From Halorhabdus amylolytica (lineage in GTDB: Archaea > Halobacteriota > Halobacteria > Halobacteriales > Haloarculaceae), in the NCBI RefSeq assembly GCF_004944975.1, contig NZ_SPQG01000001.1, positions 429,116 to 493,115 of the forward strand: a stretch of 64,000 nucleotides of DNA. Reading direction: 5' to 3'. Positions 57,872 to 61,767 of the stretch are shown here, in pieces; within the stretch, counting starts at the first letter, position 1, and every line of letters starts with the position of its first letter. Below the pieces are notes generated by a model. The model had not been told where the DNA came from and ran no database searches. It worked only from the letters and a program-made list of their open reading frames with translations. The translations under genes and the position numbers were made by a program.

Positions 57872-58852
57872 ATGAGCGAGGCCGAGCCTGCCCGGGCGGG
57901 TCGGGGGGAAGTCTGGATAGAGAAGTACCGCCCCCAGTCACTCGAAGACATCGCGGGTCACGAGGCGATCGTCGACCGACTCCGGAGTTACGTCTCCCGG
58001 AACGACCTCAGCCACATGCTGTTCGCCGGGCCAGCAGGAACGGGAAAAACCACCGCGGCCATGGCTATCGCCAAGGAACTGTACGGCGAGGAGTGGGAGG
58101 AGAACTTCCTGGAACTCAACGCAAGCGACGAGCGGGGAATCGACGTGGTGCGCGACCGGGTGAAGTCCTTCGCACGCACGTCGTTTGGCGGACATGATTA
58201 CAGAATTATATTCCTTGACGAGGCCGACGCACTTACCGCAGATGCTCAATCTGCTCTTCGCCGGACAATGGAGCAATTCTCGAACAACGTCCGGTTCATC
58301 CTGTCGTGTAACTATTCAAGTCAGATAATTGATCCGATTCAGTCTCGCTGTGCTGTTTTCCGCTTCTCGCCGCTTGCAGACGACGCCGTCGCGGAGACGA
58401 TTTGGACCATCGCCGAAGAGGAGGGCATCGAGATCACCGACGACGGCATGGAGGCGCTGGTGTACGTCGCCGACGGGGACATGCGCAAGGCGATCAACGG
58501 CCTGCAGGCCGCGTCGATGTCCGGGGATCGGGTCGACGAAGAGGCCGTCTTCGAGATCACCTCGACCGCCCGACCGGAGGAGATCCGCGAAATGGTCGAG
58601 CGTGCGCTCGACGGTGATTTCACCGCCGCGCGATCCCAGCTCGACACCTTGCTGACCGAGGAGGGGATCGCGGGCGGCGACATCATCGATCAACTGCACC
58701 GCTCGGTCTGGGAATTCGGACTGGACGACGACGCCGCGGTACGGATCCTCGATCGGATCGGCGAGGCCGACTACCGTATCACGGAGGGCGCGAGCGAGCG
58801 GATTCAACTCGAAGCGTTGCTGGCGTCGTTAGCGCTCGAAGACGACGAGTAG
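57872..58852 (+). CDS. rfcS: Replication factor C small subunit
   Basis: RfcS is the AAA+ motor of the clamp loader that places PCNA on DNA. The 326-residue protein has Walker [12 protein letters not shown] at about 51-61, Walker B FLDEADAL near 114-121, and the SRC motif in [12 protein letters not shown]. The lid and collar domains complete the normal length. Residues ~105-169 are encoded by a stretch of clearly lower GC with unusual codons (AGA, ATA, ATT, GAT, CAA, TCT), unlike both flanks. The protein sequence there is fully conserved in type. Confidence 0.96.
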
Positions 58853-59269
58853 CCGGAATTGAGTTACGTGGCGGTCGGTGCCAGGGTCGTGAGGCTTCTC
58901 GGAACTGCTCCAACGACGATGTTCGGATGTGTTGAATCCGCCGTGATCGATACAGAGAGTGCAGTCAGGACGGCGGACGTTTTTTATGTAAAATCTGCTG
59001 AACTAATCACTCAGTGCGGATACAAACTGAACACGAGACCCTGACCGACGACGCAGACACTGAGGAAGATATGTGGGGACCATCGAAGAGCCAGCCGAGA
59101 TGGGTAACCGGGGCGATAAGTTGCCACCAGAACGACAGAACTTACTCAGTGCGACCGGAACGTAGTCTCCGGCCGAGAGACGAATAATTGTGCGAAAATC
59201 ATCACAAAGAGTACTTCTGTGAACGCCACGGCTAATCGCGTTCAGACAGCGGTCGAGAAGGAATAGCAG
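58853..59269. other. Intergenic region between rfcS and the nuclease-like island
   Basis: About 415 bases of lower GC than rfcS, with no convincing gene. A T-run, GTTTTTTATG (58979-58988), may end the rfcS transcript. Short frames such as MGNRGDKLPPERQNLLSATG are present near 59100, but they match nothing I know. It may be the edge of the inserted island. Confidence 0.45.
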
Positions 59270-60337
59270 CTATTCCGGACTCTCGTCTTCTTCACACTCC
59301 GCGTCCGCATCTTCCGACTCTTCATCGTCATCGTTTTTGTCGCCTCCACCATCGTCAACAATCCTCTCATCGCCGTCATTGGCCAATGCCCCATCCGGCA
59401 CTATATTGAGGGTAGTCTGCCGCTCATCCGGAATATGATCTTCCTCAACGTCATCTAGAACTTCCTCAACACGCTGATCACGAACCGTCTGGACGATGCT
59501 CAACACCTCGGAGATATGGTCTCGTGAGAACTCATACGTTAAGTCCTCAACGTGATTGCAAGCGTCGATCTCCGTCAGATAGTACAGCACACGGTTCACT
59601 CGTTGTGGGGGAACGTTGAACGTCGGCGCGAAGTGATTACGAATCTGGTTCACGTTCACCTCTACCGTGTCGTCGTACCCAACTGCTTGCTCGCCCCAGA
59701 TCCCACAGACAGCGACAGCCAAAATTTCTTTCTCCATCTGCTCCGTCAACACAAACTCTTCCTTCGGATTCTCAGGCAGCTCAATCCCATCGTCAAATCG
59801 GTGTTGGAGACGTCCAGACTCGAAGCTTCCAGCAACACAACGCAACAACCCACCAAAGTCTTGGGTTAGCACCGCTGCTTTCTGTTCAAGGTGTTCAAGC
59901 TGCTCTTGGCAGTTCTCCCATTCGTCTCTGCACTGTTCAACCCATGCTTCATCGATATCATGATACACGATACAACGGTCGATGGTTTGCACTTCACCAT
60001 CGTACGGGGTTTTGTCCCGAACATCCGCTGCTTCCAATTCTTCCTCTACTCCATCAATAGTGAGCCGGTTGCAGCGCTCCATCTGCGCTATGTCTCGGTC
60101 TCGGATGTTGTCACCAGATTTGACCTCTACAAGCAAGCACGTATCCCCGTCATACAGTACAAAATCAGGCCTGGCCACAACACCGGCGTACGGATCGTCG
60201 ATCTCGCCGAACTTGATGGGAGCACGCCATCCGTGGTCAGCCAGACAAGGGGACGCGCGAGCTGTAAGAGCACTGTAGAATAGATTGTAGGTTTGTTTCT
60301 CTCTCAATTGCCGATCCACCTCTGGCGCTCCTGACAT
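59270..60337 (-). CDS. PD-(D/E)XK nuclease-like protein, second gene of a two-gene island
   Basis: A 355-residue protein. RPDFVLYDGDTCLLVEVKSG (about residues 57-76) has the PD...ExK spacing of restriction-like nucleases, where Asp58 and the E-V-K pair would bind metal. A YNLFYSALT segment precedes it. After a helical linker, VNVNQIRNHFAPTFNVPPQR and following residues resemble a winged-helix. The last ~45 residues are almost all acidic. It lies 5 bases after the preceding gene on the same strand. Composition is AT-richer than the neighbours. A restriction/defence or repair nuclease is plausible; no family is recognised. Confidence 0.75.
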   Translation of the reverse strand: MSGAPEVDRQLREKQTYNLFYSALTARASPCLADHGWRAPIKFGEIDDPYAGVVARPDFVLYDGDTCLLVEVKSGDNIRDRDIAQMERCNRLTIDGVEEELEAADVRDKTPYDGEVQTIDRCIVYHDIDEAWVEQCRDEWENCQEQLEHLEQKAAVLTQDFGGLLRCVAGSFESGRLQHRFDDGIELPENPKEEFVLTEQMEKEILAVAVCGIWGEQAVGYDDTVEVNVNQIRNHFAPTFNVPPQRVNRVLYYLTEIDACNHVEDLTYEFSRDHISEVLSIVQTVRDQRVEEVLDDVEEDHIPDERQTTLNIVPDGALANDGDERIVDDGGGDKNDDDEESEDADAECEEDESPE

Positions 60338-60342
60338 CGATA

Positions 60343-61500
60343 CTAGGGTGAGGCAACCGGATTCTCGACTTTCTCTTGTGAGTACGTCGAGTCGTACTCG
60401 AATATCTTCTGCACGATATCTCGCAGACTCATCGTTGTCGCAGTCTCACGCGGATAGACGATGACATCGGGGCCTTCAACGGCAAGATCGAAGATCTCAT
60501 CGTGATGCGTGTCGTACACCCGGAGCGTATCTCGCTCGCGTTCCCCGAACCGGTACTGATTGCTGTTCAGAACGTTCTCCTTGAGTTCCTCAAGCAACGA
60601 CTTGTCTACCTCCGCATCACGATCCGGGTCAGTTAGCTCAATCGCAGTAAACCCATCTACGGAAAATCCACTCTCAGTACTTCTGTGGGTTGACGCGTGT
60701 TCGACTTCGAAGCTGGCTTTGTCCAGTTCTTGGTACTCCTCTGAGACACTCAAAAGTGTGTCTACAGCTTTGTCCTGCGAGCCTTGAACGACAGACTGTA
60801 GCGAGAGCCGGCCATCGTTGCTACTGGAGCCTTGGATAGCCGCTGTGGGACTGTTCGTTTGATCGAACTCAATCCGGGTCGGCTTCGCATCGAAGTATCT
60901 TTCCGCTTTCTCAAGGTCTTCCTCGCGCCCACCATGGAAGCGGAGAGTAGCTTGTCGTTCGGCGTACGGAGCGTGGTATTTTGCCGTAAATCCGGAGATA
61001 TAGGAGTCTTGAATCACATCCTCATCGGTAACATCATCCAGATGACCTGACGAGAGATACAGTCGTTCGACTTGCGGGAGGTACTTAATTAGGTTCTCTA
61101 TTGTCTTCTTCCGCCACTTCTGTCGAACAGTCGTGAGCACCCAGATATACTCTCCCTGAGTGATCCAGACGGAATCGTCGGTGCGCGACTTCTTTGGGAC
61201 GGTAACGCTGACGATCGCCGTGTCGTCACCGAGAAGTTCCTCTGAGAACGTATGCTTCTTGACGAATTTTTTGGCGTGGCCACGCACCCGTTCGCTTTGG
61301 GTGATGTGGTTAATGTGGTCGTCAAGCAACCCTATCTCGAATCCCTTGTTGTCCAACAGATATAGGTTAAGATCGGTAGAGCTCCCGCTCCGGTGTTCCT
61401 TGTCCTCGTGGTCTTCTTCCGAGGTAGCGACGTGTTCGATGAGCTCACGGAGGATCTCTCGTTTGCTCATTTCACGGTACCGGTCGGGATCAAGATTCAT
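60343..61500 (-). CDS. Protein of unknown function, first gene of a two-gene island
   Basis: A 385-residue hydrophilic protein without signal peptide or membrane segment. The N-terminus MSKREILRELIEHVATSEED is helical and acidic. The middle contains basic stretches, such as HAKKFVKKHTFSEELLGDD and VRQKWRKKTIENLIKYLPQV, and mixed alpha/beta segments (DGFTAIELTDPDRDAEVDKS; YDTHHDEIFDLAVEGPDVIV). Basic patches may bind nucleic acid. I recognise no domain. It is the promoter-proximal gene, followed after 5 bases by the nuclease-like gene. Confidence 0.72.
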   Translation of the reverse strand: MNLDPDRYREMSKREILRELIEHVATSEEDHEDKEHRSGSSTDLNLYLLDNKGFEIGLLDDHINHITQSERVRGHAKKFVKKHTFSEELLGDDTAIVSVTVPKKSRTDDSVWITQGEYIWVLTTVRQKWRKKTIENLIKYLPQVERLYLSSGHLDDVTDEDVIQDSYISGFTAKYHAPYAERQATLRFHGGREEDLEKAERYFDAKPTRIEFDQTNSPTAAIQGSSSNDGRLSLQSVVQGSQDKAVDTLLSVSEEYQELDKASFEVEHASTHRSTESGFSVDGFTAIELTDPDRDAEVDKSLLEELKENVLNSNQYRFGERERDTLRVYDTHHDEIFDLAVEGPDVIVYPRETATTMSLRDIVQKIFEYDSTYSQEKVENPVASP

Positions 61501-61767
61501 AGTGCTGGATTGATATCGGGTATTTCTGATTCCGCCTTTTTACATCCGAGGGTTTTCGCTCTCCTTATATAGTTGTTTGTGAAACACGCTCATAGTTGTC
61601 AGCCCCACACTGAAAGTAGAATCCGGGGTGCCTCGGTCATTTCTCGACGTCACGCAATTCTTCCGAGAACGGCTTCCCCTTGTTGGGCATTATGCTTGGT
61701 ACACGGCGAGTAACAATAGCTACCAGGGAGGAGCGAGTTCAATCTATTGCTTTTGTGCTACTCTCTA
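61501..61767. other. Intergenic region upstream of the two-gene island
   Basis: No convincing gene. It contains the island's promoter near 61565-61572 and otherwise AT-richer sequence that extends to the tspO stop codon. Short frames such as one containing RERLPLVGHYAWYTASNNSY near 61660 may be debris of an older gene, but I cannot identify it. Confidence 0.4.
61563..61575 (-). promoter_or_regulatory. Probable promoter of the two-gene island
   Basis: Minus-strand AACTATATAAGGA is a good TATA box, centred about 69 bases upstream of the ATG at 61500. The mRNA would have a leader of roughly 40 bases, unlike the leaderless pattern of most genes in the window. Confidence 0.55.

Follow-up and report, generated by a model that had tools for sequence, protein, structure and literature searches.

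The gene pair that separates rfcS from tspO in the haloarchaeon Halorhabdus amylolytica raises two questions, namely how it came to lie there and what its products do. The locus falls within a stretch of 64,000 nucleotides (contig NZ_SPQG01000001.1, positions 429,116 to 493,115), hereafter referred to as the window, and a preliminary description made from the letters alone had read the pair as a foreign cassette combining a PD-(D/E)XK nuclease-like protein (gene B) with an unrecognised partner (gene A), possibly serving defence. The features of the locus, together with the defence genes found near other loci of the same family, are collected in Table 1.

Table 1. Coordinates of the A/B locus in the window, followed by defence genes near A/B at other loci
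Feature	Position	Strand	Remarks
Inserted segment between rfcS and tspO	58847..61767	.	~2.92 kb; blastn breaks, spacing, GC
Gene A	60343-61500	minus	385 aa; first operon gene; unrecognised partner protein
Gene B	59270-60337	minus	355 aa; second operon gene; PD-(D/E)XK nuclease-like
Upstream region of A	61501..61672	minus	TATA box (61565-61571) and TGTTTCACAAACA element
C-terminal domain of A, ~residues 257-377	60370..60732	minus	profile matches, E 1e-11 to 1e-4
Putative PD...ExK catalytic motif of B, P57-K73	60119..60169	minus	invariant in 21/21 main-clade homologues
Possible winged-helix region of B, ~residues 199-285	59483..59743	minus	low-confidence model and weak Pfam matches
Degenerate PIP-box position of B, QTTLNIVP, residues 307-314	59396..59419	minus	alignment, motif count
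Acidic C-terminal tail of B, residues 315-355	59273..59395	minus	mainly in the window's subclade
L095			type IIG restriction enzyme, 0.4 kb from A/B
L031			DrmD/SNF2-like and type IIG genes
L027			DrmMI/type IIG
L022			DUF499, N-6 methylase, SoFic
L029			DUF499 gene adjoining B
L019			MkoA-like protein
L091			Ppl/LmuB-like protein

Gene layout and insertion between rfcS and tspO

The two genes share the minus strand, with 5 bases between the stop codon of A and the ATG of B. A single TATA element precedes A, and the gap ahead of B is too short for a promoter of its own, in agreement with the common TATA box described earlier. The AT-richness noted for the pair was likewise confirmed, the insert containing 51.9% GC (0.519) against 64.3% for the window, with lower GC3 in A (0.61) and B (0.55) than in the neighbouring rfcS (0.77) and tspO (0.83). 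Among the neighbours described as housekeeping genes, rfcS is backed by homologues; the names tspO and alaS come from inspection of the sequence. The region upstream of A is conserved with locus L027 of G135, a genome from another family, and more weakly with loci L092, L019 and L020. The TGTTTCACAAACA element in this region was considered as a conserved operator palindrome and rejected, being present in the window and not family-wide.

In the same-genus genome G004, rfcS and tspO are spaced by 12 bp, representing an empty site, and blastn identity with the window stops at 58846 and 61768 (against L142 8296/8306). That all close relatives might carry the pair, which would have spoken for an ordinary resident of the locus, was checked and found not to be the case, as neither A nor B was present in any of the six congeners (0/6). 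The protein identities were inverted in rank: A and B of G135 are 87% and 86% identical to those of the window with RfcS at just 70%, whereas in G014, which belongs to the window's own family, RfcS is 77% identical and A 52%. The DNA similarity between the window and G135 covers 59253-61672, comprising both genes and ~170 bp upstream. The empty site, the inverted identity ranks and the DNA match with G135 indicate that a unit of roughly 2.4 kb has evidently moved by horizontal transfer, and the foreign nature claimed for the cassette is borne out by the first two of these observations. No obvious target-site duplication or terminal inverted repeats were found at the ends of the insert.

As a separate observation on the neighbouring gene, rfcS of several relatives (L115-L118 in G003 and G005, G074:C232 and G024:C12) contains in-frame interruptions near residues 61 and/or 123, resulting in open frames of 842-1608 aa; these interruptions look like inteins.

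Distribution and co-inheritance of the pair

A profile search of 391 genomes of the class uncovered B in 24 genomes; 23 of these carry full A, and in the remaining one, G391, A is partial and the fragments of A and B are located on separate contigs. Besides these genomes, the pair is found on five plasmids, and pHME505 of Haloferax mediterranei carries a member. About 6% of haloarchaea carry A/B, with many copies being chromosomal. Haloarcula pelagica YJ-61-S features two divergent copies, one on each of two plasmids (NZ_CP126163.1 and NZ_CP126164.1; L021 and L022). At every intact locus (29/29, plasmids included) A directly precedes B with a spacing of -4 to +5 bp, which certified that the pairing seen in the window is kept elsewhere. 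No third gene is conserved across the loci.

Among 345 genomes sampled across the phylum, full-length A was confined to haloarchaea. A search of IMG/VR viral contigs by short peptide patterns, which may miss distant relatives, returned no relative. The phage collection gave no match for A; for B it gave one marginal partial match in a Rhodobacter phage (E 0.03, 27% identity over 37% of B), regarded as chance. A second weak match to B in G088 (L035) was discarded too, being short and poor and yielding no B-like gene.

The trees of A and B have 22 of 25 splits in common with a patristic correlation of r 0.96, and dN/dS ranges from 0.04 to 0.17 for both genes among pairs unsaturated at synonymous sites. 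A and B are inherited together, and both are under purifying selection.

Incomplete copies were also observed. A truncated B remnant, corresponding to residues 91-196 with 53% identity, is flanked by ISH8 and gvpM on pNRC200 of Halobacterium NRC-1 (NC_002608.1, L026:8001-8318), the same match being present in pNRC100, and gene A was not found there. Frameshifts reflecting either decay or sequencing error were seen in B of G024 near the start (L030:9988-10090) and in B of G414 before the C-terminal fifth (L100:8800-9750).

Defence genes are located near A/B at no fewer than 7 of the 28 other loci; as this is a plain count with no random-locus baseline, such neighbourhoods are no more than suggestive. 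Many loci, the window's included, have housekeeping neighbours, and others are surrounded by plasmid genes.

Sequence features of B and A

No family match for B was obtained in Pfam, NCBIfam, PHROGs, PADLOC or PDB, and the best PADLOC score of the window's B (E 0.021) is not convincing. The stretch RPDFVLYDGDTCLLVEVKSG, representing residues 56-75 of B, holds the PD...ExK motif. E13, Y17, D58, E71-x-K73, Q85 and Y125 are invariant in all 21 main-clade sequences, in which 27 positions are invariant or nearly so. The invariance of D58, E71, K73 and Q85 (21/21) means that the motif is no chance match, and the claim of a PD...ExK nuclease motif in B stands. In addition, E13, Y17, D58, E71, K73, G75, Q85, I123 and Y125 were lost together in one clade of seven sequences (L032/L099 and L103-L107), which keeps N18, F43, P57, L165, G184, E204, L254, C260 and F270 in 7/7; no comparable joint loss was found in other B clades. 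Since invariance combined with joint loss in one clade is the pattern expected of a PD-(D/E)XK active site, the assignment of B as a probable PD-(D/E)XK nuclease is well supported at the level of sequence. AlphaFold modelling of B from 3 sequences reached a pLDDT of 37.7; the order of elements would be compatible with an alpha-beta core, at a confidence too low to establish one.

A winged helix, which might bind DNA, is possible in B, as suggested by the low-confidence AlphaFold secondary structure and sub-threshold Pfam matches to wHTH families. Single weak matches to KH_TffA, PD-T4-9_A, HEC-02B and Trans_reg_C were rejected as chance: the weak Pfam matches are confined to few family members, and the weak PADLOC matches, scored on the window's proteins only, are short or weak.

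The clade without catalytic residues complicates the idea of a nuclease that cuts invaders as the function of the whole family. L100 (G414, with the frameshifted B) groups with this clade, and B is devoid of catalytic residues in 8 of 29 pairs. The comparison of L032 with L099 gave a dN/dS of 0.05, reflecting strong purifying selection, which argues that the pair retains a function there in the absence of catalytic residues and, with the 8/29 count, that cutting is not the universal function. Conversely, the 21/21 catalytic invariance of the main clade suggests that selection maintains cutting across most of the family, the window's copy included. At L032:11862-12704 and L100:11159-12001, a 281 aa protein that probably spans the membrane is encoded directly upstream of A on the same strand, and fragments of its gene occur at L099.

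In most B proteins the C-terminus consists of an acidic stretch and, after it, Q-x-x-h-x-(D/E)-F or a close variant of this motif, which often makes up the very last residues. The QxxhxxFF-type motif is the published archaeal PIP motif (PMC4929162). Its full form is present in 3 B tails against 0.01 expected, the strict form QxxhxxF/Y in 11 of 29 against 0.24 expected (with a maximum of 3 in 5000 shuffles), and a loose PIP motif in 17 of 29 against 0.66 expected. RFC-L of the window's genus ends in QTGLGDFV, the same form as the ends QSSLGDF and QAGLQEFF in B, and the PIP-like tail is mostly retained in the clade without catalytic residues. These features make it likely that the B family binds the PCNA clamp via its tail. 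The window's own B does not match QxxhxxF/Y: its QTTLNIVP has the Q and the L and no aromatic residue. Q307 is invariant in 21/21 main-clade homologues, and the window's subclade keeps the Q and in most members the L, with the aromatic residue absent, for which reason clamp binding by this particular copy appears doubtful. The long acidic tail mentioned in the preliminary description is real in the window's B but is confined mainly to its subclade, most homologues ending in QxxLx(D/E)F; the PIP-box-like C-terminus and the clade without nuclease residues had both escaped that description.

A also gave no family match in Pfam, NCBIfam, PHROGs, PADLOC or PDB, in line with its being called unrecognised, and the best PADLOC score of the window's A (E 0.0015 over 37 residues) is not convincing. 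Twenty residues of A are invariant in 29 homologues, and 25 near-invariant residues of the main clade persist where B is without catalytic residues, so that A represents the constant member of the pair. AlphaFold modelling of A from 3 sequences gave a pLDDT of 36, likewise too low to establish a fold. The C-terminal ~120 residues are homologous to small stand-alone haloarchaeal proteins in ~30 genomes, including the own genome of the window (G000:C21:251804-252130, L109). These stand-alone proteins are mostly ~130-220 aa long, and in L033 and L034 the gene is situated directly downstream of a dnaJ-like gene; no Pfam match was obtained for the one tested.

Candidate functions of the pair

To our knowledge, few defence systems of archaea other than CRISPR and restriction-modification are understood in detail. 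Septu and Gabija are two-gene defence systems that contain a nuclease, and A/B resembles systems of this type as a compact, mobile and sporadic two-gene nuclease cassette with some loci near defence genes, but differs from them in having neither a convincing PADLOC family score nor a matched ATPase domain in A or B. Shedu (SduA, PF14082) employs a PD-(D/E)XK nuclease in defence as a single gene; PF14082 was absent from Pfam scans of every B homologue (E up to 1), and Shedu is present in 3 of 174 haloarchaea. KwaB (PF16162), the partner protein in the two-gene defence system Kiwa, resembles A in length; A was rejected as a KwaB protein with an hhalign probability of 0.1% against PF16162 and no Pfam match. 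Nuclease-based mobile defence candidates are already known, and the A/B pair is without a family name in the libraries searched; neither the pair nor its likely clamp link was found described in a literature search.

The pair is a sporadic, mobile gene set conserved as a unit, as is characteristic of defence systems. For a co-inherited pair of this kind, with a putative nuclease bearing a clamp-binding-like tail, the best explanation is a two-gene conflict module that moves horizontally among haloarchaea and in which the nuclease acts on replicating DNA and A serves as sensor or guide, a reading that we favour with somewhat less than an even chance of its being right. B would be a DNA nuclease of PD-(D/E)XK type, possibly with a winged helix for binding DNA, and the PIP-box-like peptide would dock most B proteins on the sliding clamp PCNA, directing their action to DNA under replication. 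A, encoded first in the tight operon, may determine the time or place of B's action. Where the catalytic residues have been lost, B might act by binding, for example as a replication block, or together with another nuclease; in the window's B, which keeps the catalytic residues and has a degenerate PIP box, clamp binding may be weak or lost. Such a module would most likely be directed against viruses or plasmids. The nuclease fold and activity, PCNA binding, the sensing role of A and the defence function are what we infer here. Of the overall reading first given to the locus, the foreign cassette, the PD-(D/E)XK active site and the unrecognised partner have held up, together with a strict A/B pairing elsewhere that extends to plasmids and, at some loci, to the vicinity of defence genes, and defence itself has to be phrased conditionally.

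Tails resembling a PIP box typically occur on factors of repair and replication, B is under strong purifying selection and many loci are without defence neighbours, all of which would fit an accessory module of DNA repair or recombination, in which B is a PCNA-linked, structure-specific nuclease acting like NucS on damaged or mismatched DNA, A is its loading partner, and carriage on plasmids and islands reflects a condition-dependent benefit. NucS/EndoMS, an archaeal RecB-family nuclease with a C-terminal PIP motif, is indeed like B in its PD-(D/E)XK type and in the PIP-like tail of most B homologues. The nuclease part, however, is N-terminal in B and C-terminal in NucS, and the haloarchaeal NucS proteins compared in full length have no PIP tail. 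Identity of B with NucS was rejected, with no profile similarity (hhalign probability 0.2%) and no Pfam match to NucS_C (PF01939). NucS is common, exceeding the cut-off in 21 of the 30 genomes sampled, and is not coupled to A, whereas B has a sporadic distribution and always comes with A. The carriage by a mere ~6% of haloarchaea and 0/6 congeners, the horizontal movement and the loss of catalytic residues in one B clade argue in the same direction and leave a repair module unlikely.

The presence of five copies on plasmids, with one strain carrying two of them on separate plasmids, and the compact operon with A ahead of B would instead agree with a maintenance module of plasmids or islands, either of toxin-antitoxin type, with B as a toxic nuclease and A as antitoxin, or as an incompatibility device against competing replicons. 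This explanation is improbable as well, given that many copies are chromosomal, that both proteins are long for a toxin-antitoxin pair, and that the clade without nuclease residues still maintains both genes, contrary to what a nuclease toxin predicts. A pair concerned with regulation or with the inhibition of replication, B serving mainly to bind DNA and PCNA and the nuclease being ancestral and dispensable, would account for the purifying selection (L032/L099), the mostly retained PIP-like tail and the 25 conserved A residues of that clade but is at odds with the strict invariance of the catalytic residues in 21/21 main-clade B proteins, and is quite unlikely.

The conflict module can be specified further as an archaeal immune system in which a nuclease docked on PCNA and under the control of A would cut virus and plasmid DNA, or stall it, during replication, one lineage having become a non-cutting, clamp-binding blocker; in this full form the proposal is tentative and rather unlikely. 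Because a member of the pair resides in the culturable Haloferax mediterranei, its function is directly testable. If clamp docking is true, A/B would provide a nuclease of defence type that is led to its target by PCNA, and the B clade that naturally lacks catalytic residues would serve as a ready separation-of-function set. With its movement between haloarchaeal families and plasmids, and a probable nuclease that in most relatives bears a clamp-binding-like tail, the pair is a good candidate for a new system of defence or plasmid competition.
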